The position numbers and the translations under genes are program-made. A stretch of 64,000 nucleotides of DNA from Asticcacaulis aquaticus. Lineage in GTDB: Bacteria > Pseudomonadota > Alphaproteobacteria > Caulobacterales > Caulobacteraceae. The stretch covers positions 62,001-126,000 of the forward strand of contig NZ_JAQQKX010000010.1 of the NCBI RefSeq assembly GCF_028550415.1, read 5' to 3'. Positions within the stretch are counted from its first letter, which is position 1; each line of letters starts with the position of its first letter. The notes under the pieces were generated by a model. The model saw nothing but the letters and a program-made list of their open reading frames with translations. It did no database searches and was not told the DNA's origin. Positions 12,514-58,270 of this stretch are shown piece by piece.

Positions 12514-14103
12514 CTAAACCCGCGTAATGCGCACGGCCATCCACTTGTTACCGGACAGCTTAATCGTCGGACGGGCCGGGTCGTGGAAATTATAGTTGTC
12601 CTTCTTGGCCATGGTAAAGACGCCCTCGACCGGGGTGACGGTCATGTTCCAGGTATCGAGCACGTCGACCCTGAACTGTTCACCGCCTTTCAGCCCGTTG
12701 CGCGGCAGGTCGACGGCCCATTCTGCGGGGGCCTGATCGCCGAAATAGCGCAGATAATAGCGGCCTTCCTTGCCGCCGACGTGGCGCTCCCACCACTTGT
12801 CGATCGGGTCGATGCCGGGAGCCGGGCCGTCCTCCATGACCTTTTTAAGGAAGGCGAGGCGCGGCGTTGCGGTGCCGAGCATCGTCCCGCCTTTACCCAG
12901 CCACGAGCCGTCGGCACCCGACTTGTCCGGTGTATAGGTCTCCGAATGGCCGACATAGGTCCCGGCGATATGGCCGTGCCAGAAGCGCATGACCATTTCC
13001 TGACCGCTCAGATTGCCCCAGCGCAGCGCGATGTCGCCTTCGTAGCAGACCTCATCGAAAATGACCGGTTTCTTCCACACGCTGCGATAGGTTTCCGCCG
13101 TGCGGTCATCGAGCACCGCCGTCCCGTTCTGCACCGAGGCATGGGTAATCCACGGCTTGTTGTTGTCGTACAGCACCTTGATATTGTGGATCGAGCGCAG
13201 GCGGTGGTGCGGATCTTCGGACTGCAGCAGTTCCAGAATGTGGTCCCAGTCGGCCATCGACTTGGTCTTGATGTCGTCGTATTCGTTCGCCGCCGACCAC
13301 CAGACATTACGGAACGCCGACAGGCGCGCGATCAGGTAGCGCAGATAGCGTTCGTCGTGGACGCGGTTCTGATCCGAGAAGCCGCGCTTTTCGTCATAGG
13401 GATGGAAGATGATGATGTCGGCCTCGACCCCGATATCGAGCAGGCTTTTGACGCGCGATTCGAAGCGACGGAAATAGGCGGGGTTGAAGCGCGTACCGTC
13501 CCAGTCGCGGTCGCCTGTACCCGTTTGCACGAACGGATGGATCGGCTCGGCAGCGACGTTGGGGAAGACGCACATGCGCAGCTTGTTATAGGGCGAACCG
13601 GTCAGGGTTTTGATCGTCTGCGCGCAGCGTTCGTCCGATTGCTGGGCCCAGGCGTAGCAGGTGGTGCCGATCTGACGGAAGGGCGTGCCGTCGGCATAGG
13701 CGAAGTGATAGCCGTCGAGCGTCACCTTTACGGGCCCGTGATTGGTGTTCGACGGGGCGCTGGCTTCGGCCTGACCGGTCTGGCCGTCCAGCGCCGTGAC
13801 GTTGCTTTTGGTCACCCAGCGCCAGGTGCCGGTCTTCGGCGGGCTGAACCGGATGCGGTAATCCCCGTCGCCGTCGTAGAAGCCCGGCACGCGCACGACC
13901 TCGGCACCGTCGGTGAAGTCGGCGCTCAGATCGACGTCGAGGAACGGGTTGCCGGTGTCAGGGCCTTTCAGGCTGATCTCGTACAGACCCCAGCGTTCCA
14001 GCGCAGGTGCGGCGGGTGTCGTCGTCTTTTTGGGCGCGGCAAAGGCGGCGGTCGCATAGAGCCCAACCGGCAGGGTGAAGGCGGCGCGTCGGGTAAAGGA
14101 CAT
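12514..14103 (-). CDS. DUF5060/DUF4038-type (beta/alpha)8 glycosidase, candidate apiosidase (copy 1)
   Basis: A 529-residue exported protein (signal MSFTRRAAFTLPVGLYATAA, twin-arginine-like, cleaved near AFA). Residues 36-110 form the DUF5060 beta-sandwich (RWGLYEISLKGPDTG, VPGFYDGDGDYRIRF). Residues 130-430 are a TIM barrel with clan GH-A style carboxylates: Glu of WWSAANEYDD (putative acid/base) and Glu of IFDEVCYEG (putative nucleophile). A C-terminal DUF5605-like beta domain follows (DVLDTWNMTVTPVEG). Proteins with DUF4038 barrels include GH140, whose founding member removes apiose from RG-II. Here the gene lies 62 bases downstream of the sugar-binding protein of the putative apiose importer, which makes apiose-releasing activity an attractive but unproven guess. 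Two paralogues occur at 42569 and 56680. Confidence 0.75.
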   Translation of the reverse strand: MSFTRRAAFTLPVGLYATAAFAAPKKTTTPAAPALERWGLYEISLKGPDTGNPFLDVDLSADFTDGAEVVRVPGFYDGDGDYRIRFSPPKTGTWRWVTKSNVTALDGQTGQAEASAPSNTNHGPVKVTLDGYHFAYADGTPFRQIGTTCYAWAQQSDERCAQTIKTLTGSPYNKLRMCVFPNVAAEPIHPFVQTGTGDRDWDGTRFNPAYFRRFESRVKSLLDIGVEADIIIFHPYDEKRGFSDQNRVHDERYLRYLIARLSAFRNVWWSAANEYDDIKTKSMADWDHILELLQSEDPHHRLRSIHNIKVLYDNNKPWITHASVQNGTAVLDDRTAETYRSVWKKPVIFDEVCYEGDIALRWGNLSGQEMVMRFWHGHIAGTYVGHSETYTPDKSGADGSWLGKGGTMLGTATPRLAFLKKVMEDGPAPGIDPIDKWWERHVGGKEGRYYLRYFGDQAPAEWAVDLPRNGLKGGEQFRVDVLDTWNMTVTPVEGVFTMAKKDNYNFHDPARPTIKLSGNKWMAVRITRV

Positions 14104-14165: not shown

Positions 14166-15930
<1,765 letters not shown>

Positions 15931-15934
<4 letters not shown>

Positions 15935-16977
15935 GAACGGGCCCCGGTAATGAATCGTTTCTGAATCTGATCCAGTACCACAGCGGCGACGATCACGCTG
16001 CCCTTAATAACCATCTGCCAGAACTCGGACACGCCCATCATGATCATGCCGTCGGACAGGACGCCGATGACGCAGGCGCCGATCAGCGTGCCGAGGATCG
16101 TGCCGCGTCCGCCTGACAGCGAGGCTCCGCCCAGAACGACGGCGGCGATGGCCGACAGTTCCAAAGTCTCGCCGGTCGCCGGGTGGGCCGAAACCAGTTG
16201 CGACGAGATGATCAGCCCGACCAAGGCCGCGCACAGGCCGGAGATGATATAGACGAGCGTCTTGACCTTATTCACGCGCACCCCGGCCAGAGTCGCGGCG
16301 CGCTCAGAGCCCCCGATGGCATAGACATATCGCCCGAACGCCGTGCGTCCGGCGACGCCCATGGCGACGGCGGCGATGACGATCATCAGCCAGATCGGCA
16401 CGGGGACGCCCAATAACTGACCGGCACCAAGGAACGGAAAGCCGGTATTGCCGTGCGCCGCAGTGCCGACCAGATTGGGGAAGGTCGTGCCGTTCGACGA
16501 CAAAAGCGCCGAGCCGCGCGCCACATAGAGCATCCCCAGCGTGGCGATGAAGGGTGCCACGCCGAAGCGCGTGATCAGCGCCCCGTTGATCAGGCCGACC
16601 AGCGCGCCGACGGCCAGGGTGATGGCGATGACCAGCGGGATCGACGGATAGATGACGATGCCCAAGGGCTCCAGCACGATGCCGTTGAGGATCAGCATCC
16701 CTGCCACCATCCCGGCCAGACCAGCGGTGGAGCCTACCGACAGGTCGATGCCGCCGGTCAGGATGACAAAGCTCATCCCTATGCCCAGAATCGCGATGAT
16801 CGCGATGTGCTGAAGCATGATGGTGAAGCTGGCCACCGACAGGAAGTTCGGCGCGGCGAACGAAAAGAAGGCCAGCACGGCGATCAGCGCGATATAGGTG
16901 CGCAGTTGCAGGATCAGGCTGAGGACGCCGCCCTTGGTGTCGGATGGCGCGGGGGTGGTTTGGGTCGTGGCGCTCAT
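15931..16977 (-). CDS. ABC sugar importer permease (RbsC-like)
   Basis: A 348-residue inner-membrane protein of the BPD_transp_2 family with eight to ten hydrophobic segments. Family landmarks are the GIGMSFVILTGGIDLSVGS stretch and LGGASLSGGRGTILGTLIGA. It forms the channel of the ribose-class importer together with the ATPase upstream and the binding protein downstream. Its ATG overlaps the stop of the ATPase gene by one base (TGATG), and its own stop overlaps the DeoR start by four bases, indicating translational coupling through the operon. Confidence 0.92.
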
Positions 16978-18485
16978 CAGGCGGGGCTCATTTCAGATTC
17001 GGGAACGCCATTGGCGGCGGCGATCAGGGCGGCCTCCGTGGCTTCGGACGGCGACAAATCGGCAGTGATACGGCCGCGCGCCATGACCAGCACGCGATCG
17101 GCGCCGGTCTGGGCTTCGGCCATGTCGGAGGTGGTGAAGACGACGCTCATCCCGCCTTCGGCCAGGGTGCGCATCCGGGCGAAAATGTCGTGACGGGCAC
17201 CGATATCGACGCCGCGACCGGGTTCGTCGATCAGCAGGACGCGCGGTCCCGGCATCAGGCAGCGCCCGATGACGACCTTTTGCTGGTTGCCGCCGGACAG
17301 GGCCCCGATGGACAGATCCGGCGACGCCGTCTTGACGCCCATCAGGCCGATCATGGCGGCGATGGCGCGTCCAGCGGCGGTTTCGGAAATCAGGCCCAGA
17401 CGGCTGAACTTCACCAGGCTGGACAGGCCGAGATTGCCACCGACGCTGAGATTGGGAAACAGGCCCTCGGCCTTGCGGTCTTCGGGGACCAGACACAGGC
17501 CGCGCTCAACCCGTGCTGACACGTTCAGGCCCGCCAGATCCTTGCCATCGAGGCGGACCGTGCCGCGCGCCGGACAAGCACCGACCAGCGATTCCAGAAG
17601 CTCGCTGCGCCCCGCACCGAGCAGGCCGTAGATGCCGACGATTTCCCCGGCCTTGATGTCGAGATCGACGTGATCGAGGCTGTAGCCCCCATCGGGCCGC
17701 GTCAGCCTCAGGTCACGCACGCTCAGCACCGTCGCGGCGGTGGTGTCGCGCGAGGTCGCGACGGCGGCCTGACCGTCGTGGCCCAGCATATGGCGGACGA
17801 TCCACGGCATAGAGACCTCGGCGACGGGGGCCGTGGCTTGCCAGCTACCGTCGCGCAGGATGGTGATGTGGTCGCCGATGCGCAGCAGTTCTTCGAGTCG
17901 GTGCGAGATATAGACGATACCCGTCCCGACGGATTTGAGGTCGCGGATGATGCGGAACAGGACCTCGACCTCGGTCGGGCTGAGCGCGCTGGTCGGCTCG
18001 TCGAGAATCAGGACGCGCGCCTTGTCCGATAAGGCGCGGGCGATTTCAACGATCTGCTGCTGACCGATGCGCAGGTCGCCGACGAGGGTGTCGGGGTCGA
18101 TATCCTGCTCCAGCCGTTTCATCAGGGCCGCGGTCTCCGCGCGTTCGCTGCGGCGGTCGATCAGGCCTGCGTTTTGGCGGCCGAGGAAGATGTTTTCGCT
18201 GACGCTGAGGTTCGGGCACAGGTTCAGTTCCTGATGCACGATGCTGATGCCGTGGGCGGCGGCGTCCTTGACCGAACCGATGCGAACCGCTTTGCCGTCC
18301 AGCAACAGTCGGCCCGAGGTCGGGGTTTCGACCCCGGCCAGAATCTTCATCAGGGTCGACTTGCCCGCCCCGTTCTCGCCGATCAGGACATTGACCGCCC
18401 CGGCGTGAACGTCGAAATCGACGCCTTTCAGGGCTTCGGTCGCGCCGTAGCGTTTGACGATGGTCTCGGCCCGCAGCAGGGTCAT
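16977..18485 (-). CDS. ABC sugar importer ATP-binding protein, duplicated ATPase (RbsA/XylG-like)
   Basis: A 502-residue cytoplasmic protein with two fused nucleotide-binding domains, the usual length for ribose-class importers. The first half has Walker A GENGAGKST, signature RIGQQQIVEIARAL and Walker B VLILDEPTSAL. The second has a degenerate Walker A (GLLGAGRSE), signature LSGGNQQKVVIGR and Walker B VLLIDEPGRGVD. Degeneracy of the second Walker A is normal for this class. It powers import of a sugar, probably D-apiose given the divergent catabolic genes. The start codon overlaps the DUF2291 stop codon by four bases. Confidence 0.93.
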   Translation of the reverse strand: MTLLRAETIVKRYGATEALKGVDFDVHAGAVNVLIGENGAGKSTLMKILAGVETPTSGRLLLDGKAVRIGSVKDAAAHGISIVHQELNLCPNLSVSENIFLGRQNAGLIDRRSERAETAALMKRLEQDIDPDTLVGDLRIGQQQIVEIARALSDKARVLILDEPTSALSPTEVEVLFRIIRDLKSVGTGIVYISHRLEELLRIGDHITILRDGSWQATAPVAEVSMPWIVRHMLGHDGQAAVATSRDTTAATVLSVRDLRLTRPDGGYSLDHVDLDIKAGEIVGIYGLLGAGRSELLESLVGACPARGTVRLDGKDLAGLNVSARVERGLCLVPEDRKAEGLFPNLSVGGNLGLSSLVKFSRLGLISETAAGRAIAAMIGLMGVKTASPDLSIGALSGGNQQKVVIGRCLMPGPRVLLIDEPGRGVDIGARHDIFARMRTLAEGGMSVVFTTSDMAEAQTGADRVLVMARGRITADLSPSEATEAALIAAANGVPESEMSPA

Positions 18486-19141
18486 GACACGACGTCCAGA
18501 CGTACCGGCGTGACGCGGACGGCTGAGTCGGCGGTGTGCGCAAAGACGCCGGTAAAGCGAACCTTTTGTCCTACGCGCAAGGCCCCGATAGCGGCGGCAT
18601 TGGCGCGCAACGCCTTTTCGTTCAACGACTTCGACACGTCGGCATAGACGAGCTGATTGGTGAAGTCGTTGAACGAGATGAAGGCCAGGCTGTCGCGCAA
18701 GGTAGTGCCCGACACATAGGGACCGGTGCGGATCAGTACATCGGTATTCCCGGCCCGCACCGTGGCCACGCCCGCCGGACCTGAGGCATCGACGGCGGTC
18801 ACCGTCCCTTCGCCTTTGAGGGCATAGGTGAAGGGCGAGCCTTCGCCCGCCTGACGACCGAAGTTTTTCTCAGTCGTCGCCGCGTCGGTTTTGAGCGCAG
18901 CCAGAAGCGTGTCGACCGGCTGGGCGCGACCATCGATGGCGGGCACAACCTTCGCTGCCCACACCTGTTCGGCATAGGCCCTGGCGTCGAAGCTGTCGCT
19001 TTGCTGGGCGCGCGCCATGCGATCCTCTTCGATCGACACGACGGTACAGGCCTGCAGTCCAAACGACAGGCACATCATGACGGCCAGCGCCGACGCATGA
19101 CAATATCCGCACCATCGGCGGGTCTTAGGAGTCTGTCGCAT
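18482..19141 (-). CDS. DUF2291 family lipoprotein, first gene of the ABC importer operon
   Basis: About 219 residues. A signal (KTRRWCGYCHASALAVMMCL) ends in the lipobox LQAC, so the protein is probably a lipoprotein facing the periplasm. The start at 19141 is preferred because it puts the charged n-region close to the hydrophobic stretch; an ATG at 19186 would add 15 residues without signal features. The rest is a small DUF2291 domain (residues about 40-215) with no known catalytic motif. DUF2291 genes are repeatedly seen beside ribose-class importers, but a function has not been established as far as I know. Being first in the operon and overlapping the ATPase gene by four bases implies a role in uptake of the same sugar. 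Confidence 0.82.
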   Translation of the reverse strand: MRQTPKTRRWCGYCHASALAVMMCLSFGLQACTVVSIEEDRMARAQQSDSFDARAYAEQVWAAKVVPAIDGRAQPVDTLLAALKTDAATTEKNFGRQAGEGSPFTYALKGEGTVTAVDASGPAGVATVRAGNTDVLIRTGPYVSGTTLRDSLAFISFNDFTNQLVYADVSKSLNEKALRANAAAIGALRVGQKVRFTGVFAHTADSAVRVTPVRLDVVS

Positions 19142-19182
19142 GTCCTGCCTGTTCTTACGTCCACACCACGTGTCGGGTGAAG

Positions 19183-19193
19183 TCATCTTATGT
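19183..19193. promoter_or_regulatory. A+T-rich box near the DUF2291 start
   Basis: TCATCTTATGT (19183-19193), read in coding direction as ACATAAGATGA, resembles TCATAATATGA before the first GH42 (33433-33443); both continue into ACTT. It may be a shared operator half or part of the promoter of the ABC operon. The similarity is short. Confidence 0.3.
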
Positions 19194-19422
19194 TTTTTGA
19201 CAGGCTACATTTTTTGAAATTCTTGTCAATCACGACAAAAAGGAATAAATCGATAAAAAACGAAAGTGAACCTTATTGTCATCCGTCGCGGCTGGGGGTA
19301 GGGTGAGCGTCAAGAGGTGATCAACACCCCGTAGCGCGCACCCACAGATAAGGTGTCGCGGGAGGAATGGGTTATGCCGCTTCCGGGTTCGCCGGGCCAA
19401 GCGGCTTGTTTAAGGATTGAAT
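19194..19422. promoter_or_regulatory. Divergent promoter region between importer and catabolic operons
   Basis: About 230 bases separate the two operons. It contains the inverted repeat TTGTC-N6-GACAA (19223-19238) and, 20 bases on, AAACGAAAGTGAA (19258-19270), a tandem GAAA/GTGAA pattern like DeoR-family sites. TTGTCA (19223-19228) followed after 17 bases by TAAATC (19246-19251) could be a sigma-70 promoter toward the transketolase genes. These are candidate targets of the DeoR protein encoded in the importer operon. Confidence 0.45.
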
Positions 19423-20274
19423 ATGTCTCTCACGGCTGCCGTGCGTGCGCCCGACCGGGATGCCCGCGTTGCCCATATTGCCGAACGTGCGAACTGGATT
19501 CGCCGCCGGTCCCTCAAAATGGTTTTCGACGCGCAGGCCGGTCACCCGGGCGGTGACCTGTCGGCGGCCGATATTCTGGCGACGCTCTATTTCGGCGTCA
19601 TGCGCTATGACGCGAAAAACCCTGCCGATCCGGCGCGCGATCGCTTTATCCTGTCCAAGGGGCACATTACCGGTGCGTTTTATTCGGTGCTGGCGGCGGC
19701 AGGTTATTTCCCGGAAGACGAACTCAACACCTATCTCCAGCCCTTGTCGCGACTAAACGGCCACCCCAATCGCATGTACCTGCCCGGCGTCGAGACCAAT
19801 ACCGGCCCGCTGGGGCACGGGTTTCCGGTCGGGGTTGGCATCGCTATCGCCGGTCAGATCGACAAGGCCGATTACCGCACCTTTGTTCTGACCGGCGACG
19901 GCGAGCTTCAGGAAGGCAGCATGTGGGAAGCGGCCATGACCGCAGGCCACCGTAAGCTCAATCGCCTGACCGTGATCGTCGACCGCAACCGCCTGCAACA
20001 GGGCATGGGGACCGAGGAAACCGTGGCGCTGGAGCCGCTGGCCGACAAGTGGCGGGCGTTCGGTTTCGCGGTCGAAGAGGTCGATGGCCACGACGTGGCG
20101 GCGCTGCTGGCGGTGCTTGAAGCATCGCCGGAAACCCGCGATAAACCTTTGTGCGTGATCGCCCATACCCATAAGGGGCAGGGGGTGTCCTTCATGCAGG
20201 ATAAGGCGTCCTGGCACCACGGCGTGCCGACGGCGGAACAGTTTGCTATGGCGATGAAAGAGCTGGAACTATGA
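19423..20274 (+). CDS. Transketolase N-terminal (TPP-binding) subunit, candidate apulose-4-phosphate transketolase subunit
   Basis: A 283-residue thiamine-diphosphate subunit. The ATG at 19423 is chosen because AAGGA (19412-19416) is well spaced; a TTG two codons earlier is in frame. Motifs: AGHPGGDLSAADILATLYF, SKGHITGAFYSVLA, GPLGHGFPVGVGIAIA, and the TPP/metal motif GDGELQEGSMWEA with IVDRN. It pairs with the C-terminal subunit that overlaps it by four bases. Split transketolases of this kind serve in special sugar pathways. In the non-oxidative D-apiose pathway such a pair moves a two-carbon unit from apulose 4-phosphate to glyceraldehyde 3-phosphate, giving dihydroxyacetone phosphate and xylulose 5-phosphate. 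The kinase, isomerase and importer beside it support that role. Confidence 0.88.
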   Translation: MSLTAAVRAPDRDARVAHIAERANWIRRRSLKMVFDAQAGHPGGDLSAADILATLYFGVMRYDAKNPADPARDRFILSKGHITGAFYSVLAAAGYFPEDELNTYLQPLSRLNGHPNRMYLPGVETNTGPLGHGFPVGVGIAIAGQIDKADYRTFVLTGDGELQEGSMWEAAMTAGHRKLNRLTVIVDRNRLQQGMGTEETVALEPLADKWRAFGFAVEEVDGHDVAALLAVLEASPETRDKPLCVIAHTHKGQGVSFMQDKASWHHGVPTAEQFAMAMKELEL

Positions 20275-21233
20275 GCGCGGCGACCCCTGTGGCGAGCAAC
20301 ATGTTCGATTGCCGCGACGCCTATGTGAAGGCCGTCGAAGAGTTGGCTGTCAACGACGCGCGCATCGTCACGGTGTGCAACGACAGCGTCGGCTCGTCCA
20401 AGCTGAATAAATTCCGCGACCGCTTCCCTGACCGTCTGGTCAATGTCGGCATCGCCGAGCAGAACATGATCGGCGTCAGCGCCGGTCTGGCCAATGGCGG
20501 CAAGATTCCGTTCGTGTCGGGGGCGTCGTGCTTCCTGACGGGGCGGGCGCTGGAGCAGATCAAGGCCGATATCGCCTATAGTCAGGCCAATGTGAAGCTC
20601 TGCGGCATGGCGCCGGGGGTCGGTTACGGCGATCTGGGGCCGACGCACCATTCGATCGAGGATCTGGCGTGGTTGCGGCCTTTGACGCATCTAACCATTC
20701 TCGTGCCGTCCGATCCGTGGGAAACCGCAGAAGCCATCAAGGCTGCCGCTGCGCTCGACGGGCCGGTCTTTATCCGCGTCAGCCGTACGCCGGTCCCGGC
20801 TCTCCCGCGCGAAAACGCAAAATTCGAAATCGGCAAGGCCGAAATCCTGCGTCAGGGCCATGACGCCGCGATCATCGCCAACGGCACCATGGTGCACCGG
20901 GCGCTGTCGGCGGCGGAGGCTCTGACCGACGAAGGGATCTCGGCGCGGGTCGTCAATCTGTCGTCGATATCGCCCCTCGATGAAGCCGCTATCGTCGAGG
21001 CCGGGAAAACCGGTGCCGTCGTCACGGTCGAAGAGCACGTTATCCGCGGAGGCTTAGGCGGCGCGGTCGCCGAGATACTGGCCACGCAACAGCCGTGCCC
21101 GATGCGCATTCTGGGCTTCCCCAACTTCGCCCCGACCGGTTCGGCGGAGTTTCTGTTCGAGCATTTCGGCCTCACCGCCGAGGGCATTGCGCAGAATGTG
21201 CGCGAGCTGCTGAACGCACGGCGGGCGGGATGA
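20271..21233 (+). CDS. Transketolase C-terminal (pyrimidine-binding) subunit, candidate apulose-4-phosphate transketolase subunit
   Basis: A 320-residue protein with the pyrimidine-binding domain (residues 10-175: RFPDRLVNVGIAEQNMIGVS, with the catalytic Glu in IAEQN) and the C-terminal transketolase domain (190-315: GHDAAIIANGTMVHRAL, VVTVEEHVIRGGLGGAV). Together with the N-terminal subunit it makes a complete transketolase of about 600 residues. The ATGA overlap with that gene ensures equal synthesis. The next gene, the FGGY kinase, overlaps its stop by four bases, so all three are translationally coupled. The context fits apulose-4-phosphate as donor, but an ordinary pentose phosphate role cannot be excluded from sequence alone. 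Confidence 0.88.
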   Translation: MSAATPVASNMFDCRDAYVKAVEELAVNDARIVTVCNDSVGSSKLNKFRDRFPDRLVNVGIAEQNMIGVSAGLANGGKIPFVSGASCFLTGRALEQIKADIAYSQANVKLCGMAPGVGYGDLGPTHHSIEDLAWLRPLTHLTILVPSDPWETAEAIKAAAALDGPVFIRVSRTPVPALPRENAKFEIGKAEILRQGHDAAIIANGTMVHRALSAAEALTDEGISARVVNLSSISPLDEAAIVEAGKTGAVVTVEEHVIRGGLGGAVAEILATQQPCPMRILGFPNFAPTGSAEFLFEHFGLTAEGIAQNVRELLNARRAG

Positions 21234-22669
21234 GCGCATCGCCGCTCATACTGGCCATCGATCAGGGGACGACCAATTCCAAGGCGTTCCTGATCGATCC
21301 GCAGGGCGGGATCGTCGCGAAGGCCTCGCGACCGATGACGGTGACGCACCCTCAGCCGGGCTGGGCCGAGCTCGATCCGTGCGGCATCTGGCAGACGGTG
21401 CGCGAGACGATAGACGAGGTCAGCGCGGGACGTGATGTCGCCGCCATCGCCATTTCCAATCAGCGCGAGTCGATCCTGCTATGGGACGCGGCGACGGGTG
21501 AACCGGTCGGGCCGTGTGTTATCTGGCAGTGTCGCCGCTCGTCCGATGCTTGCGCTCTGCTGCGCGAATACGGCCACGAGGCGATGATCGTCGAAAAAAC
21601 CGGCCTTGGTATCGATCCGCTGTTTCCGGCTTTGAAACTGGCGTGGTTGCTCGATAACCTGCCCGACGCCCGGGTGAGGGCTGAACGCGGTGAGTTGCGC
21701 GCCGGGACGGTCGATAGCTGGCTGCTGTGGAACCTGACCGGCGGTAAGGTCCACGCGACCGACGCCTCGAACGCCTCACGCACGCAGTTGATGAATATCG
21801 ACACCGGGCGCTGGGACGCCGATCTGGCCGAGCTGTTCCGGTTGCCGGTGTCGCTGTTGCCGGAGATCAAGGCGTCGGACGCCCTGTTTGGCCATACGGC
21901 GGACGGTGTGCCGATCCACGCCCTGATGGGTGATTCCCACGCGGCCCTGTTCGGGCACGGCATTTCAACCCCAGGCCGAATCAAGGCGACTCTGGGCACC
22001 GGCAGCTCACTGATGGCCGTGACCGGCGCGCGGGCGTATTCGACGCACGGCCTGTCGGGGACGGTGGCGTGGTCGCGCCACGGCGACGTCGTTCACGCGC
22101 TGGAAGGCAATATTTCCGTGTCGGGTCAGGCGGCGGCCTTTGCGACGCGGCTGCTTAATCTGGCCAACGAAGCGGCCCTGACCGAACTGGCGAAAACCTT
22201 GTCCGACAATGGCGGCGTGGTCTTTGTTCCGGCGCTGGCAGGGCTTGGCGCGCCTCACTGGAAGGACCGCGCGCGCGGTCAGATCACCGGCATGACCCTG
22301 GCCACCGAACCCGCCCACGTGGCGCGGGCGGCGCTGGAAGCCATCGCCCTGCAAATCCGCGATGTCTTCGTCGCCATGGAGGCCGATCTGGGCGCGGAGT
22401 TACCCGATATCTCCGTCGATGGCGGTGCCGCGGCCAGCGATGTCCTGATGCAGATCCTCGCCGATCTCCTCAACCGGCCCGTCCGCCGTCCGGCGGTGAC
22501 CGAGGTCACGGCCTGCGGCGTGGCGCGCATGGCGGGCGAAGCGCTCGGCCTGTGGCAGGGCCGGGGAGACACCGAAGACACCGTTTTCACGCCGCGCCTC
22601 AATCAGGCCGCGCGCACGCAAATCTTGTCGCAATGGTACGCGGCCATAGAAAAAGCCAAACAGGAATAG
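21230..22669 (+). CDS. FGGY-family carbohydrate kinase, candidate D-apulose kinase
   Basis: A 479-residue sugar kinase. The ATG at 21230 is chosen because it overlaps the transketolase stop (ATGA) and yields [20 protein letters not shown], the ATPase-fold start of the family; a longer frame upstream lies inside the transketolase gene. FGGY_N spans about 6-240 and FGGY_C about 250-440, with [12 protein letters not shown] and [17 protein letters not shown]. It resembles glycerol, xylulose and erythritol kinases and phosphorylates a polyol or ketose. Between a split transketolase and a TIM-barrel isomerase, the best fit is D-apulose to D-apulose 4-phosphate in apiose catabolism. Substrate choice is inferred from context. 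Confidence 0.87.
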
Positions 22670-22679
22670 GAAGTTACCC

Positions 22680-23672
22680 ATGACCGGACAGCAAAAACCC
22701 GCTCAACGCTATGGCGCAGGCATCTGGCATTTCGCGACCTATGTCGACCGTTACGCCACCGATGGCTACGGCCCGCAGCGCAGCCTGCTGGAGATGATCG
22801 ATCTGGCCGGTCAGGTCGGCGACCTGTCGGTGGTCGATATCAACTATCCCTTCCCCGGCGGCGGGGTGTCGTTCGAAGAGGTCGAGGCGGCGCTGAAGCG
22901 CAACAATCTCAGCGTTATCGGCATCACGCCGGAAATCTATACGCAGGTCTTTTCGAAGGGCTCGTTCACCAACCCCGATCCGGGCGTGCGTCGTCTGGCC
23001 AACGAAATGTGCAACGAAGCCGCCAAGGTTGTGCGTCGTTTCGGTGCTGATTACGTCAAGCTGTGGCCGGGTCAGGACGGCTGGGACTACCCGTTCCAGG
23101 TCGATTATCACGATCTGTGGAAGCTTTCGATGGACGGCGTCGGTGAACTGGCCAGCCAGAACCCCGACCTGAAATTCGTCATCGAATATAAGCCGCGCGA
23201 GCCGCGCAACCATATGAGCTATGATTCGGTGGCGCGGACCCTTCTGGGTATCGAGAAGATCGGCCTGCCCAATATCGGCATCCTGCTCGACTTCGGTCAC
23301 GCGCTCTACGGCGGCGAGTCCCCGGCGGATTCGGCGCAACTTGCTATCGATTACGGTCGCCTGTTTGGCATGGACGTCAACGACAACTTGCGCGGCTGGG
23401 ACGATGACATGATCGCCGGCTCGATCCACCCGATGGAGCTGATGGAATTCTTCTATGTCCTGCGCAAGAACAAGTGGAAAGGCGTCTGGCAGCTCGATCA
23501 GTTCCCGTTCCGCGACGACTGCGTGGGCGCGGCCAAGAGCGCGATTTCGTTCCTCAAACACATCGATCAGGCGCTGGACCGGCTCGACTGGGATGCCATG
23601 AAGGCCGCGCAATCGCGTCAGGATGCCGTCGCCGCGACCAATCTGGCCCGTGCGGCCTTGTTCAATTTCTAA
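22680..23672 (+). CDS. Xylose-isomerase-like TIM-barrel sugar isomerase, candidate D-apiose isomerase
   Basis: A 330-residue AP-endonuclease-2/xylose isomerase-like barrel. It begins with [20 protein letters not shown] and carries likely metal ligands in [13 protein letters not shown] (Glu), [15 protein letters not shown] (Asp, His) and [13 protein letters not shown] (Asp). It belongs to the group often labelled sugar phosphate isomerase/epimerase or rhamnose-isomerase-like; members in apiose loci convert D-apiose to the ketose D-apulose. It follows the kinase by 10 bases with AGGAA before the start, and precedes the transaldolase by 9 bases. Placing it as the first enzyme of apiose catabolism is the most coherent reading of the operon. 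L-rhamnose or another aldose is the main alternative. Confidence 0.83.
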
Positions 23673-23681
23673 GAGACTCTG

Positions 23682-24335
23682 ATGCTTATTTTTGCCGATA
23701 CCGCCGACACCCAGCTTCTGGCCGAACTCAATGAAACCGGCCTGATCGACGGGGTGACGACCAACCCGACCATCATCGCCAAATCGGGGCGCAACATGGC
23801 CGAGGTGATCAGGGAAATCTGCGATATCGTCGATGGCCCGATCTCCGCCGAAGTCGCCGCCACCGAGTTCCGTCAGATGGTTGCCGAGGGTGAAAAACTG
23901 GCTCAGATCGCCGACAATGTCGTGATCAAGGTGCCGCTGACGGTCGATGGCCTGAAGGCCACCAAGGTCTTTTCCGAACAGGGCCTGATGACCAATGTCA
24001 CCCTGTGCTTCTCGGTGACGCAGGCGCTTCTGGCGGCCAAGGCCGGGGCGACCTTCGTGTCACCGTTCGTCGGTCGTCTGGACGACCGTGGCGAGGACGG
24101 CATGCAGCTGATCCGCGACATCCGTCAGGTGTTCAACAACTACGACTTCGAAACGGCCATTCTGGCGGCTTCGCTTCGTAACACCACCCACGTCGCTCAG
24201 GCCGCTATCGCGGGTTCGGACTGCGCCACTCTGCCGCCTGCGGTTATTCAGGCCATGTTCCAGCACGACCTGACCGACAAGGGCTTAGAGACCTTCCTCG
24301 CCGACTGGGCGAAGACCGGTCAGTCTATCCTCTAG
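23682..24335 (+). CDS. Transaldolase (short TAL/FSA-family type)
   Basis: A 217-residue class I aldolase-fold enzyme. The Schiff-base lysine is Lys83 ([11 protein letters not shown]), with [11 protein letters not shown] and TNVTLCFS as family signatures. Two positions separate transaldolases from fructose-6-phosphate aldolases: here there is Glu57 (SAEV) rather than Gln, and Phe129 (SPFVGRLDD) rather than Tyr, both pointing to true transaldolase. It would move dihydroxyacetone units between sugar phosphates and so recycle the xylulose 5-phosphate made by the transketolase pair. It lies 9 bases after the isomerase gene in the same operon. Confidence 0.88.
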
Positions 24336-24368: not shown

Positions 24369-25832
24369 ATGACGAAACGGACCTTAACCGGGTGGCTATG
24401 TGCCGGACTGATGCTGACGACCCTGCCCGGCGTGCCGGTGGCCGCTACGCCTGAGGCGACGGCGCAGGCGCCGGAAGCGCGAGACAAAATCCGCCTGTTT
24501 GTCCTGACCGATATCGGCGGCGATCCCGACGACCTTCAGTCGATGGTCCGCCTGATGACCTATGCCAATCAGTTCGACATCGAAGGTCTGGTCGCCACCA
24601 AAAACAGCGCCGGGGTGTTTCCGGAGCAGATCGATCACGTCATCGAAGCCTATGGCAAGGTGCGCGATAATCTGGAGCGTCACGAAAAGGGTTTTCCGAC
24701 CGAGCAGGCCCTGCGCGCCACCATCGCGTCAGGTCCCAATTTCGACGGCATCGAAACGATCGGCAAGGGTAAGGACTCCGCTGGTTCCGAGCTTCTGATC
24801 AAGGCGGTCGATCGCGACGATCCGCGCCCGGTCTGGGTCACGGTCTGGGGCGGCCCCAGCGTCCTTGCGCAGGCCCTGTGGAAGGTCAAGGCGACGCGGT
24901 CAAAGGCCGAGGTGGCGAAATTCGTGTCGAAACTTCGTGTCTATGCGATTTCGGATCAGGACGATGCCGGACCGTGGATCAGGCGCGAGTTTCCGGGTCT
25001 GTTTTACATCGTCAATCCCGGCGGCAATTTCCATATGTCGACCTGGATCGGCATCGGCGGCGATATGTTCCACGGCCGCTTCGGCGGGGCCGACTGGTCG
25101 CTGGTGACCAATGAGTGGCTGGACAAAAATATCCGCACCAAGGGACCGCTGGGCGCGGTCTATCCCGCGTGGAAGTTTCAGATGGAAGGCGATACGCCGT
25201 CCTTCCTCTATCTGGTCGACAATGGCCTGAGCGCGCCGGAGCACCCCAACTGGGGTGGCTGGGGCGGTCGCTACGAACTCTATACCCCGCCGACGCAGAA
25301 ATGGTTCTTCGAACCGGAAACCCGGCCGATCTGGACGACCGCGATGGACGAGGTGCTGGGGCTGGACAACGAATGGCACACGACCATGCACGCGACCGTC
25401 TGGCGCTGGCGCGAGGCCTATCAGAACGATTTTGCCGCGCGGATGGACTGGACGACCAAGCCCTATGACAAGGCCAACCATCCGCCGGTCGTGAAGCTCG
25501 ACATGCCGGCCTATATCAAGGCGAAACCGGGTGAGCGCGTGGATCTGAGTGCCGTCGGCACGACCGATCCGGATGGTGATGCGGTGTCCTACAACTGGTT
25601 CGTCTATGAGGAAGCCGGGACGCGCGGCATGATGAACTCTTTCACCGGGGTCAAGTTGCCAGTGCAGAACTTCGATCAACAAAAGGCGTGGCTGACGGTC
25701 AAGAAGGACCGCGTCAACAAGCCGGGGACCGGGACAATTCATGTCATTGTGGCCGTCACCGACCACGGCACGCCGCGCCTGACACGCTATAAGCGGGTCA
25801 TCATCGACGTGCAGCCAGAACCCAAGCCCTAG
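24369..25832 (+). CDS. Secreted DUF1593 (Sde182-like) protein with nucleoside-hydrolase-like domain
   Basis: A 487-residue exported protein with signal MTKRTLTGWLCAGLMLTTLP. The mature N-terminal domain (about 40-330) looks like a nucleoside hydrolase: FVLTDIGGDPDDLQS parallels the Asp-rich calcium site of inosine-uridine hydrolases, followed by MTYANQFDIEGLVAT and VWVTVWGGPSVLAQAL. The C-terminal 120 residues form an Ig/cadherin-like domain (SAVGTTDPDGDAVSYNWF). The family occurs with polysaccharide degradation genes; one member was first described as cellulose-binding. It lies 33 bases after the transaldolase gene on the same strand, so it is probably co-transcribed with the sugar pathway. 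Because the fold cleaves ribofuranosides, activity on furanosidic pectin sugars such as apiose is conceivable; that is speculation. Confidence 0.78.
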   Translation: MTKRTLTGWLCAGLMLTTLPGVPVAATPEATAQAPEARDKIRLFVLTDIGGDPDDLQSMVRLMTYANQFDIEGLVATKNSAGVFPEQIDHVIEAYGKVRDNLERHEKGFPTEQALRATIASGPNFDGIETIGKGKDSAGSELLIKAVDRDDPRPVWVTVWGGPSVLAQALWKVKATRSKAEVAKFVSKLRVYAISDQDDAGPWIRREFPGLFYIVNPGGNFHMSTWIGIGGDMFHGRFGGADWSLVTNEWLDKNIRTKGPLGAVYPAWKFQMEGDTPSFLYLVDNGLSAPEHPNWGGWGGRYELYTPPTQKWFFEPETRPIWTTAMDEVLGLDNEWHTTMHATVWRWREAYQNDFAARMDWTTKPYDKANHPPVVKLDMPAYIKAKPGERVDLSAVGTTDPDGDAVSYNWFVYEEAGTRGMMNSFTGVKLPVQNFDQQKAWLTVKKDRVNKPGTGTIHVIVAVTDHGTPRLTRYKRVIIDVQPEPKP

Positions 25833-25842
25833 CGGCCAGACC

Positions 25843-25880
25843 CCGGGTGTGTTAGGGTGTGTACATCTGCACACACCCGG
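25843..25880. promoter_or_regulatory. Operator-like repeat array of the toxin-antitoxin operon
   Basis: Two direct copies of GGGTGTGT (25845-25852 and 25855-25862), ten bases apart, face one inverted copy ACACACCC (25871-25878). CCGGGTGTGT and ACACACCCGG make a perfect 10-bp inverted repeat. It ends directly upstream of the antitoxin start, a typical place for an autoregulatory ribbon-helix-helix operator. Confidence 0.7.
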
Positions 25881-25888
25881 AGCCGATC

Positions 25889-26146
25889 ATGCCCAGCACC
25901 ACCATGACCATCCGTGTCAGCACCGACGTCAAGGCGCGCCTTGAGCGTCTGGCCGAAAGCACACAGCGCAGCCAATCGTGGCTGGCGGGTGAAGCGGTGA
26001 GCGCCTATGTCGAGCGTGAACTGGCGATCGTCGAGGGCATCAGGCAAGGCATGGAGGATGCTTGCGCGGGCCGCACCGTCAGTCATGAAGAGGCAATGGC
26101 CGAGTTACAGGCTATTATCGACGCGGCACAATCGGGTCGAGCGTAA
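25889..26146 (+). CDS. Ribbon-helix-helix antitoxin (ParD/CopG type)
   Basis: An 85-residue protein. The start at 25889 is preferred because CGGAG (25878-25882) is well spaced and an upstream ATG (25859) lies inside the operator repeats. The N-terminus, TMTIRVSTDVKARLERLAES, is the classic beta-strand and helix of a ribbon-helix-helix DNA-binding domain; the acidic C-terminal half would wrap and neutralise the toxin. The toxin gene follows after three bases. It probably represses its own operon through the repeats just upstream. Confidence 0.88.
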   Translation: MPSTTMTIRVSTDVKARLERLAESTQRSQSWLAGEAVSAYVERELAIVEGIRQGMEDACAGRTVSHEEAMAELQAIIDAAQSGRA

Positions 26147-26149
26147 GTC

Positions 26150-26449
26150 TTGCCGACGGTTCGCTGGTCGCGGGGTGCGCTTGATGATGTTAAGGCGCAA
26201 ATCACCTATATATCCGCCGATAACCCTCTGGCCGCGCAAAAGGTAATCGACCGATTGAATACGGCTGCTGACGCACTGGGTCGTCGGCTAACCGGCCGTC
26301 CCGGACGGGTCACAGGCAGCTACGAGACGTCGGTGACTGGTGTGCCCTATATCCTCTGTTATGAGGTATGGCCGGATGACACGGTCTATATTCTCCGGGT
26401 CATCCACACCGCTCGCGACTGGCCGGAAGGTGCGTTTCCTAAACCGTAA
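26150..26449 (+). CDS. RelE/ParE family toxin
   Basis: A 99-residue protein reading from a TTG at 26150, three bases after the antitoxin stop. It has the ParE/RelE pattern: VRWSRGALDDVKAQITYIS at the start, LGRRLTGRPGRVTGSYETSV in the middle and VYILRVIHTARDWP at the end. ParE toxins block gyrase and RelE toxins cut mRNA; the HTARDWP ending is closer to ParE-like proteins. The 3' end overlaps the convergent alpha-rhamnosidase gene by 11 bases, suggesting the pair was inserted without much spare sequence. Confidence 0.88.
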   Translation: MPTVRWSRGALDDVKAQITYISADNPLAAQKVIDRLNTAADALGRRLTGRPGRVTGSYETSVTGVPYILCYEVWPDDTVYILRVIHTARDWPEGAFPKP

Positions 26450-42568: not shown

Positions 42569-44173
42569 ATGTGGTCACGTCGCACCGTCATGGTTTCCGC
42601 TGCCGCGTCTCTGGCCCTCAGCAACGCTGCCTTTGCCGCGCCTGCGTCGGTCGAACGCTGGGGCGTCTATGAGATCGCACTGAAAGGGCCGCAAACGGGC
42701 AATCCGTTCGATGAGGTGACCCTGTCCGCCGTCTTCGTGTCGGGCGCCAGACGCGTGGTGGTGCCGGGTTTTTACGACGGCGAGGGCGTCTATCGGGTCC
42801 GCTTCAGCCCGCCGGAGACCGGCGGATGGTCGTGGGCGACGCAGAGCAATATCCGGGCGCTGTCGGGGCAAACGGGTCGCTTTGAGGCGACCGCACCCAC
42901 AGGACAAAACCACGGTCCGGTGCGGGTGACCAAGGACGGCTACCACTTCGCCTATGCCGACGGGACGCCGTTCCGTCAGATCGGCACGACCTGCTATGCG
43001 TGGGCCCAGCAATCGGACGCCAAATGCGCCGAGACCCTGACGACGCTTTCGACCTCGCCGTTTAACAAGCTGCGCATGTGCATCTTCCCGAACGTGACCG
43101 CTGAAAGCATCGATCCGTTCGTGCGCACCGGTTCGGGCGACCGAGACTGGGATGCCAAACGCTTCGACCCGGCCTTTTTCCGTCGCTACGAAGACCGCAT
43201 CCGGCGGCTGGGGGCCTTGGGGATCGAGGCCGATATCATCCTGTTTCACCCCTACAACAAGGCGCGTGGCTTTTCGAACATGAGCCGCGCCGACGACGAG
43301 CGCTATATCCGTTACGTCAGCGCGCGGTTTTCGGCCTATCGCAACGTCTGGTGGGCGATGGGCAACGAGTATGACGGCATCAAGACCAAGGTCATGGATG
43401 ACTGGGACCACCTGTTTCAGGTCTTGCAGGCCGCCGATCCGCACGACCGGCTGCGCTCGATTCACAATATCAACGTCTATTACGACCACCGCAAACCATG
43501 GATCACCCACGCCAGTTTCCAGAATGGCTCGGCGGTGCTCGACGACGCCCGCGCCCAGCCCTACCGCAACTTCGCCCAGAAGGCGGTCATCTTCGATGAG
43601 GTCTGCTACGAGGGCAATTCGGTCAAGCGCTGGGGTAATCTGACAGGTGAGCAACTGGTGATGCGTTTCTGGTGGGGGACGATCGCCGGGACCTATGTCG
43701 GCCACAGCGAGGCCTATTCGGAGCCCGGCAGGACCGACGGCTCATGGCTGGGGCAGGGCGGCAAACTAATCGGGACCAGCCCGCCACGGCTGGCGTTTCT
43801 GAAGACTATCCTCGATACCGCGCCGACGCCGGGGATAGAACCGATCGAGACGTGGTACGACAAGCATATGGGCGGCAAGCCGTTCGAATATTATCTGCGC
43901 TATTTCGGTGCGGCGGAACCGACCGAGTGGGTGTTCGAACTGCCCGGGCGCAAGGACGATCCCAAGAACACCTACCGCGTCGATATCATCGATACCTGGA
44001 ACATGACGATCACGCCGGTCGAAGGTGTGTTCACGATGGACATCAAGGACGCCTACAGCTTCCACGATCCGAAGCGACCGGTGGTGACGCTGCCGGGGAA
44101 GAAATGGATCGCGCTGCGCATCACGCGCGTCACCGGCAAGGATGGGGTGTGGACCAATCCGGATCTGGATTGA
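42569..44173 (+). CDS. DUF5060/DUF4038-type (beta/alpha)8 glycosidase (copy 2)
   Basis: A 534-residue exported protein (signal MWSRRTVMVSAAASLALS) closely related along its whole length to the protein at 12514-14103. It has the DUF5060 sandwich (RWGVYEIALKGPQTGNPF, VPGFYDGEGVYRVRF), a TIM barrel with putative acid/base Glu (WWAMGNEYDG) and nucleophile Glu (IFDEVCYEG), and the C-terminal DUF5605-like domain (DIIDTWNMTITPVEG). It starts two bases after the GH127 stop, so it probably acts on a product or neighbour of the GH127 substrate. No characterised activity can be assigned with certainty; a relation to GH140 apiosidases is possible. A foldback repeat follows. Confidence 0.77.
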   Translation: MWSRRTVMVSAAASLALSNAAFAAPASVERWGVYEIALKGPQTGNPFDEVTLSAVFVSGARRVVVPGFYDGEGVYRVRFSPPETGGWSWATQSNIRALSGQTGRFEATAPTGQNHGPVRVTKDGYHFAYADGTPFRQIGTTCYAWAQQSDAKCAETLTTLSTSPFNKLRMCIFPNVTAESIDPFVRTGSGDRDWDAKRFDPAFFRRYEDRIRRLGALGIEADIILFHPYNKARGFSNMSRADDERYIRYVSARFSAYRNVWWAMGNEYDGIKTKVMDDWDHLFQVLQAADPHDRLRSIHNINVYYDHRKPWITHASFQNGSAVLDDARAQPYRNFAQKAVIFDEVCYEGNSVKRWGNLTGEQLVMRFWWGTIAGTYVGHSEAYSEPGRTDGSWLGQGGKLIGTSPPRLAFLKTILDTAPTPGIEPIETWYDKHMGGKPFEYYLRYFGAAEPTEWVFELPGRKDDPKNTYRVDIIDTWNMTITPVEGVFTMDIKDAYSFHDPKRPVVTLPGKKWIALRITRVTGKDGVWTNPDLD

Positions 44174-56679: not shown

Positions 56680-58270
56680 GTGACAAAGGACCCCAGGCCC
56701 TTCAGCCGCCGTATGATCCTGACCCTGCCGGTTAGTCTGGGCGTGGTGTCGGCGCTTCCCGCTATGGCTAAAAGCGCTCCCCCTCGCGTGGCGATGTGGG
56801 ATAGATTTGAGCTAAGCCTGACGGGGCCGAAAACAGATAATTCTTTTATAAATCATACAATAAAGGCTGTGTTCACCCAGGGCAATCGCGCGGTCACGGT
56901 CGACGGATTCTATGACGGTGACGGGATATACTAAGGTGCGCTGCATGCCCGATGCAGTGGGGCACTGGACTTACCGGACGGTAAGCTCGGTGAAGCGCCT
57001 CGACGGCAAGACCGGAGGATTTGATTGCGCGCCTGCAACAAATGGATCGCATGGACCGGTACAGGTTCGCGGTACGCATTTCACATATAGGGACGGGACG
57101 CCTTATCTGCCGTTCGGTACGACCAGCTATGCCTGGATACATCAGTCCGAGACCTTGCAGCAGGAAACCCTGGCCACGTTGAAAGCCTCAAGCTTCAACA
57201 AGATTCGTATGGCGGTGTTCCCGAAGCACTACGAATATAACCACAACGAGCCGGGGCTTTATCCGTTCGCGCGTAATGCGGAGGGAAAGAGCGATTACGA
57301 CCGGCCCAACCCGGCCTTTTACCGGCATCTGGAAACGCGACTGGCTGATTTGCGGGCCATGGGCATCGAGGCCGACCTGATCCTGTTCCATCCCTACGAC
57401 CGTTGGGGCTATGCCTCGATGACCCCGGCGCAGGACGACGCCTATGTGCGCTACCTCACGGCGCGCCTGTCGAGTTTTTCCAATATCTGGTGGTCGCTGG
57501 CCAACGAATACGACCTGATGAAGGGCAAGACGACGGCGGATTTCGAGCGCCTGCTGGGGTTGGTCGCCAAACACGATCCCTATGAACATCTGCGCTCGGT
57601 TCACTATTCGGTGACGCCGTGGGACTACAGCCAGCCGATCGTCACCCACGCCAGCATGCAGACCCTGCCGTTCAAGCCGCAGCATTTCGAAACGACGCCG
57701 GAGCAGTTGAAACTCTGGAAAAAGCCCGTCCTCAATGACGAGGTGTCGTATGAAGGTAATCTGAACCGTCGCTGGGGCAATATCACCGGTGAAGAACTGA
57801 CCTGGCGCTTCTGGCGGGGCGTGCTGGCGGGGGGCTATGTCTCGCACGGTGAAACCCTGCTCGATGCGGCCGCAGACTATAGCGAGGAGTCGACGCCGAC
57901 CCTGTGGTGGTCGCACGGCGGCAAGCTGAAAGGGACCAGTCCGGCGCGCATCGGTTTCCTGCGCAAGCTGGTCGAAGAAATGAATGCGCGGCCGGGCGTG
58001 ACGCCGGGTCTGGTGCCGCCTGAGAAGGTTTATTACCGCTATGCCTCGACGATGAAGATCGATGGCAAGACGGTCGACGGGCTTCTGTACTTCCTCGATT
58101 TTCACCGCCCGGTCTGGTACGAATTCCCGTTGCCCGAAGGGCGGTTCCGCGCCGAACTAATCGATCCGTGGGAGATGACGATTGCACCGGTTGCCGGCGA
58201 ATTTACGACCAAGGCCAAGCTGATCCTGCCCGGCAAACCGTTTCAGGCCGTGCGCTTCCTGCGTCACTGA
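56680..58270 (+). pseudogene. DUF5060/DUF4038-type glycosidase (copy 3), broken by a one-base frameshift
   Basis: The first part, from a GTG at 56680 with GAGGA upstream, encodes a twin-arginine signal (PFSRRMILTLPVSLGVVSAL) and the DUF5060 start, then stops at 56932-56934 right after FYDGDGIY. The next frame continues without a gap as KVRCMPDAVGHWTYRT through the TIM barrel (putative Glu residues in WWSLANEYDL and LNDEVSYEG) to FQAVRFLRH. Removing one base near 56931-56932 gives 529 residues, exactly the length of copy 1. The break is therefore a single inserted base, either a recent mutation or a sequencing error. The first 200 bases are more A+T rich than neighbouring genes. An ATG at 56665 is an alternative start. 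Confidence 0.8.

Follow-up and report, generated by a model that had tools for sequence, protein, structure and literature searches.

Sde_0182 of Saccharophagus degradans, whose structure has been solved (2YHG), carries a nucleoside hydrolase (NH)-like PF07632 domain and a PF21027 domain and, according to an excerpt of PMC2386152, has a CBM2 and linkers; the relevant passage of a review (PMC8910321) describes its NH-like domain as inactive on nucleosides and as a possible furanose-interacting module. The 487-aa protein analysed here shares both domains with it and matches it in sequence with an E-value of 1.5e-86. Despite the solved structure, our literature searches found no activity reported for PF07632, which we take to be the former DUF1593; searches for DUF1593 papers, for nucleoside hydrolases combined with polysaccharide utilization loci and for NH-fold glycosidases likewise came back empty. 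As general context, apiose occurs in RG-II and apiogalacturonan, and GH140, to our knowledge the only apiosidase family that can be named, is thought to handle the substituted apiose of RG-II. A route for apiose through ApsI, a kinase and a transketolase was reportedly described by Carter et al. in 2018. One abstract puts the number of plant metabolites containing apiose above 1,200 (PMC10602602), and passages of PMC13001218 describe an apsI-bearing apiose cluster from Pectobacterium.

In the window, by which we mean the whole analysed stretch of 64,000 nucleotides from Asticcacaulis aquaticus, the Sde182-like gene occupies 24369..25832 on the forward strand, beginning with an ATG that has a ribosome-binding-like AGGAAA stretch just 5' of it. 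The initial annotation had placed here a DUF1593 protein, 33 bases behind a transaldolase gene and with an Asp cluster TDIGGDPDD, and each of these points is borne out: the 487-aa reading frame is present, the ATG at 24369 comes exactly 33 nt after the transaldolase gene, whose stop ends at 24335, and the cluster is found at residues 47-55 (24507..24533). The only Pfam matches at E 0.001 were PF07632 (Sde182_NH-like; residues 42-302, 24492..25274; E 2.4e-105; 352.4 bits against a curated cut-off of 26.8) and PF21027 (Sde0182_C; residues 391-481, 25539..25811; E 3.1e-23; 82.6 bits against a curated cut-off of 27), the latter a PKD-like β-sandwich. The N-terminus, MTKRTLTGWLCAGLMLTTLPGVPVAATPEATAQA, resembles a Sec signal peptide when the translation is read by eye (approximately residues 1-27, 24369..24449), and the protein is predicted to be exported. 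Unlike Sde_0182, in which the Asp cluster reads TDMGADPDD, the 487-aa protein is devoid of a CBM2 and is encoded in an apiose operon.

That operon is recognised by homology and lies, on the same strand, directly upstream. It consists of an AptA-like N-terminal transketolase half (19417..20274; PF00456), an AptB-like C-terminal half (20271..21233; PF02779, PF02780), an FGGY kinase (21227..22669; PF00370, PF02782) that is probably apulose kinase-like judging by its operon, an ApsI-like TIM-barrel isomerase (22680..23672; PF01261) and a transaldolase/fructose-6-phosphate-aldolase (FSA) type gene (23682..24335; TIGR00875 above its cut-off, PF00923); isomerase, kinase and both transketolase halves thus share a single operon. 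Divergent from it, on the reverse strand at 14166..19186, are genes for a sugar-binding protein, a DeoR regulator, an ABC permease, an ABC ATPase and a DUF2291 lipoprotein, the permease and ATPase being named from their sequence rather than from a domain scan. The best solved relative of the isomerase is 3KTC (E 7e-140) and those of the sugar-binding protein are 5IBQ and 4RY0 (E approximately 1e-122); we take 3KTC and 5IBQ to be apiose-linked structures. A close relative by genome is Asticcacaulis sp. YBE204, with an ApsI identity of 98%, and the same apiose gene set is present in most of the 80 ApsI loci described below, the best 80 of 342 relatives. As a minor point, the AptA-like frame was called from a TTG at 19417, and the ATG at 19423 (19417-19425) is the likelier start. 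The transaldolase/FSA gene at 23682-24335 had no tblastn match at the cut-offs applied in these 80 loci, nor in the YBE204 region, and looks like a local addition to the apiose operon.

An AlphaFold2 model of the protein (m1b7e1b69dcf1), computed from an alignment of 90 non-redundant homologues (127 PF07632 matches, 113 of them full length and 103 distinct, reduced to 90 by an 88% identity filter), reached a pLDDT of 93.7 and a pTM of 0.93. Its top Foldseek match was 2YHG (E 8.4e-45), and VIA-align superimposed the two with a Z-score of 46.2 (396 residues, 41% identity); as in 2YHG, an NH-like domain is followed by a β-sandwich domain. The same method returned 40 nucleoside hydrolase or NH-like effector entries with Z-scores of 15.8-19.9 over approximately 240 residues, and PKD domains matched residues 343-456 of the mature model with a Z-score of approximately 10. 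The model shows a nucleoside hydrolase fold capped by a PKD-like domain; it shares this fold with the inosine-uridine nucleoside hydrolases of PF01156 (3G5I, 5TSQ, 1YOE), from which the protein differs in its extra PKD-like domain, its signal-like N-terminus and a motif longer by two residues.

This fold, together with the Asp cluster, would fit an ordinary secreted nucleoside hydrolase salvaging ribose. We find that reading scarcely credible and set it aside, as the protein has no PF01156 match at E 0.001 in the Pfam scan, the genome holds two separate PF01156 matches elsewhere, and the solved homologue is inactive on nucleosides according to the passage cited above (PMC8910321). Membership in GH140 was likewise set aside on the Pfam scan, in which PF13204 was unmatched; that family would cut the same bond as the one proposed here, and differs in family and fold.

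Among the 90 homologues, D48, D54, Y95 and G274 are invariant, and nearly so are D55 (89/90), D275, Q197 and D198 (88/90 each), E273 (86/90) and H105 (85/90); the E273-G274-D275 triplet is encoded at 25185..25193. Homologues retaining the Asp cluster reach down to 27% identity with the 487-aa protein, which has N at residue 79 where 78 of the 90 have Ser. The Asp residues expected of a calcium site, whose absence the initial annotation would have counted against a furanosidase, are by this alignment present and almost invariant. By analogy with nucleoside hydrolases, D48, D54 and D55 are likely the calcium-site Asp residues, D275 is a likely further metal ligand and E273 is proposed as general acid. 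The mapping of the Asp residues onto the NH Ca2+ site rests on a weak profile alignment (E approximately 0.01) and on intermediates: the N-terminal Asp motif of PF01156 hydrolases, DCDPGQDD, aligns without gap, but weakly (E 0.014), to the TADPELDD cluster of branch-II PF07632 proteins, and a GD(S/T/N)P motif in the short NH-like proteins described below was matched by eye to EGDTP. The NH sequences compared were a set of 20 less L219 and L223; we regard the motif mappings from the Sde182-like protein to nucleoside hydrolases as suggestive.

β-D-Apiofuranose carries a 2,3-cis-diol like that of ribose. Tentatively, and at a little under an even chance, we read the Sde182-like protein as a putative exported, Ca2+-dependent apiofuranosidase of NH fold, which would free D-apiose from plant apiofuranosides outside the cytoplasm, whereupon the sugar would be taken up by the ABC transporter and passed to the ApsI, kinase and transketolase enzymes of the same locus. 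In such an enzyme, D48, D54, D55 and D275 would hold Ca2+, which would grip the cis-diol of the apiosyl group much as nucleoside hydrolases grip ribose and would position the attacking water, E273 would donate the proton needed by an O-glycoside leaving group, and the PKD-like domain would cover the surface through which nucleoside hydrolases oligomerise. The substrate would probably be a terminal apiosyl group that bears no substituents, whether on apiogalacturonan, an oligosaccharide or a small apioside, and not the substituted apiose found in RG-II. In favour of this reading are the NH fold, the conserved Asp cluster, the place in the operon, the repeated nearness of PF07632 to ApsI and, as described below, tight ApsI-Sde182 pairs, the Novosphingobium loci L350-L352 and a second, short NH-like family near ApsI. 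Against this reading count the weakness of the NH sequence alignment (E 0.01), the PF07632 copies found away from apiose genes, the ApsI loci with no PF07632 gene nearby, the reported inactivity of the solved homologue on nucleosides (the same excerpt of PMC8910321), and three GH140 genes in the window (PF13204, Apiosidase; 12514..14103 on the reverse strand, 42569-44173 and 56912-58270 on the forward strand) that could already release apiose. Fold and family are known already and only the proposed activity is new; if true, it would give the PF07632 family a function through a specific substrate, and would found a glycoside hydrolase family whose fold is otherwise associated with N-ribosides.

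The place of PF07632 relative to apiose genes was followed in species genomes scanned with an ApsI alignment, which gave 342 relatives, of which the best 80 were kept, a choice that leans towards relatives of the query. Of these best 80 loci, 12, spread over three phyla, carry PF07632 no more than 10 kb from ApsI (Asticcacaulis, Caulobacter, four Novosphingobium, Sphingomonas gellani, an Alteromonadaceae bacterium, a proteobacterial MAG, a Bacteroidia MAG, Ruania and Arachnia), and in the other 68 it was not detected within that distance. Proximity to the apiose isomerase in other genera, and indeed other phyla, therefore agrees with the expectation of the initial annotation. A genome-wide PF07632 match below 1e-30 was present in 29 of the 80 genomes, and 17 of the 29 have a copy on the same contig as ApsI and no more than 17 kb from it, against 0.44 expected under random placement and a maximum of 5 in 200,000 simulations. 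As a control, a strong GH10 (xylanase) match (E below 1e-15) occurred in 33 of these 80 genomes, in none of them within 17 kb of ApsI; GH10 overlapped none of the 80 loci, and the nearest copy seen on an ApsI contig was approximately 46 kb away (G628), with 13 of the 69 listed GH10 copies having no locus and being judged by contig and coordinates alone.

When the bacterial family was sampled (249 genomes drawn), PF07632 was present in 31 genomes. Seven had an ApsI orthologue (at least 79% identity); all seven also carry PF07632, and in six, G208 being the exception, the two genes lie within 17 kb of each other. Among 349 genomes of the phylum, PF07632 occurred in seven, three with E below 1e-30, and among 326 Bacteroidota in 28; one Bacteroidota genome has two PF07632 copies just before ApsI (G906) and another a copy beside AptA/AptB in a region where ApsI was not detected (G845). 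PF07632 goes with ABC-type apiose loci, being present in 9 of the 22 loci that have the binding protein vs. 3 of the 58 that do not (Fisher p 0.0003, shared ancestry uncontrolled). The idea that Sde182 proteins replace GH140 in apiose loci was not borne out: by its own profile, GH140 was counted in 1 of the 12 loci with PF07632 and in 20 of the 68 without (Fisher p 0.17; best 80 of 342). The link to apiose drawn for this protein by the initial annotation stands as regards co-occurrence with ApsI and abutting gene pairs, and does not extend to PF07632 as a whole: an apiose-only PF07632 family was set aside, given that 24 of the 31 genomes that carry PF07632 within the bacterial family have no ApsI orthologue.

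The tight pairs comprise ApsI followed after 16 nt by Sde182 in Asticcacaulis sp. YBE204, after 12 nt in Novosphingobium sp. MW5 (58% identical to the 487-aa protein) and after 88 nt, counted to the likely ATG, in G193 (47%), and the three Sde182 proteins fall in different clades of a 90-row tree. In that tree 23 of the 90 rows are apiose-proximal, with 13 label changes, at least nine of them forced by well-supported branches; shuffling the label gave a mean of 20.6 changes and in none of 500 trials as few as 13. The six-row clade of the 487-aa protein stems entirely from ApsI-bearing genomes, which the tree over-samples. Because the protein has an NH-like build, lies in an apiose operon and has relatives beside apiose genes, it may be a new kind of apiose-freeing enzyme.

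The same neighbourhoods also bear on the possibility that the protein is an exported NH-fold furanosidase or glycosidase for another furanoside or wall substituent, its place in the operon reflecting co-regulation with pectin use. The window as a whole is a pectin locus (GH28, pectinesterase, pectate lyase, GH78, GH106, GH127 and GH29, besides GH42 and GH3), 24 family genomes keep PF07632 without ApsI, and PF07632 paralogues in Asticcacaulis lie in a GH43/GH5/GH39/esterase/GH31 cluster. Against such a role stands the tight pairing with ApsI, which recurs in separate branches of the tree and has no counterpart for GH10, and we consider the role rather unlikely. Other Asticcacaulis paralogues are flanked by housekeeping genes, one dapD-like and one ilvC-like, and the neighbours of non-apiose PF07632 copies had no common theme among the 88 of 256 candidate genes scanned, both of which tell against an apiofuranosidase; for apiose copies 58 of 160 candidates were scanned, both sets being random draws trimmed by hand, in the apiose set chiefly of apiose-operon genes.

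Apiose loci with PF07632 in Caulobacter (L107, with L108 and L109), Sphingomonas (L348, L354) and Novosphingobium (L349-L353) mostly have a carboxylesterase and a TonB receptor, and three (L108, L353, L354) a GH3 relative. The Novosphingobium loci L350-L352 each hold a TonB receptor and a carboxylesterase, two of them a beta-lactamase-type protein, L350 an extra esterase and an MFS transporter, and L352 Band-7 and CHAT proteins. By rough gene calls, the PF07632 protein is the only glycosidase-like protein in L350-L352 and no recognised glycoside hydrolase was found there; two frames, of 429 and 157 aa, went unmatched in Pfam, in frame lists of which some entries are antisense to the apiose genes. 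We infer that these loci would fit the use of small, perhaps acylated, apiosides. As separate observations, a 6.5-kb contig (L119, genome G018) has a PF07632 gene after a DeoR/ABC/binding-protein cluster resembling the one in the window, although AptA and ApsI orthologues were not found in that genome, and the transporter there may be for a different pentose or a different path of apiose use; Alteromonadaceae bacterium Bs31 (L359, L358) has five PF07632 copies on one 53-kb contig, near a GH140 relative, a GH78 relative and apiose genes.

Since Pfam labels the PF07632 family as cellulose-binding, and the NH-like domain of Sde_0182 is, in the review passage, inactive on nucleosides and possibly furanose-interacting (PMC8910321), the protein could also be non-catalytic, binding furanoses or cell wall and feeding apiose or apiosides to the transporters. 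The near-invariance of the Asp cluster, E273, Q197, D198 and H105 is more than binding alone would need, although binding can also conserve a site, and we judge this role distinctly unlikely.

In 9 of the best 80 of 342 ApsI loci (L175, L181, L182, L185, L188, L192, L197, L198 and L201), from Actinomycetota and Rhizobiales, a search with an NH profile and then an iterated profile detected short NH-like proteins at most 10 kb from ApsI. They share superfamily and operon neighbourhood with the 487-aa protein but measure approximately 290-310 aa in eight of nine as scanned, lack the PKD-like domain, carry the motif NTDAKNEADDQ or DNDFSGDPDGL, and have no signal peptide visible by eye. All nine match PF01156 (E 6e-12 to 1e-22) and seven match PF07632 weakly, so that by sequence they appear intermediate between the two families. 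Counting either kind of gene, 19 of the best 80 loci have one within 10 kb (12 + 9 - 2). The nine cannot all be independent events, since several are closely related and PF01156 genes occur widely (in 31 of the 61 relatives of the window genome).

Two of the short genes immediately follow ApsI in the same orientation, in Devosia rhodophyticola (L201:11015-11911, +; approximately 39 nt) and in a Rhizobiales genome (L192:11009-11905, +; approximately 36 nt). Such placement of proteins without a visible signal peptide, behind an enzyme whose substrate is free apiose, would suit a cofactor-free apiose converter, e.g. a mutarotase speeding apiose ring forms towards the isomerase. We know of no NH-fold mutarotase, and the 487-aa protein looks exported, away from ApsI, which makes this function highly improbable for it. 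Extending the apiofuranosidase reading to the short proteins, it is possible, though less likely than not, that Ca2+-dependent apiofuranosidases have been recruited from the NH superfamily more than once, in two exported PF07632 branches and in a short one resembling PF01156. They would form a class of glycoside hydrolases separate from GH140, opening apiosylated pectin and small plant apiosides in Pseudomonadota, Bacteroidota and Actinomycetota.

Beyond the Sde182-like gene, and before a GH78 gene, a toxin-antitoxin-like pair of CopG and ParE type (PF01402, PF05016) occupies 25889-26449. Between the Sde182-like gene and the antitoxin-like frame, at 25843-25880, a 10-base inverted repeat, CCGGGTGTGT ... 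ACACACCCGG, was noticed by eye and could be an operator or a terminator.
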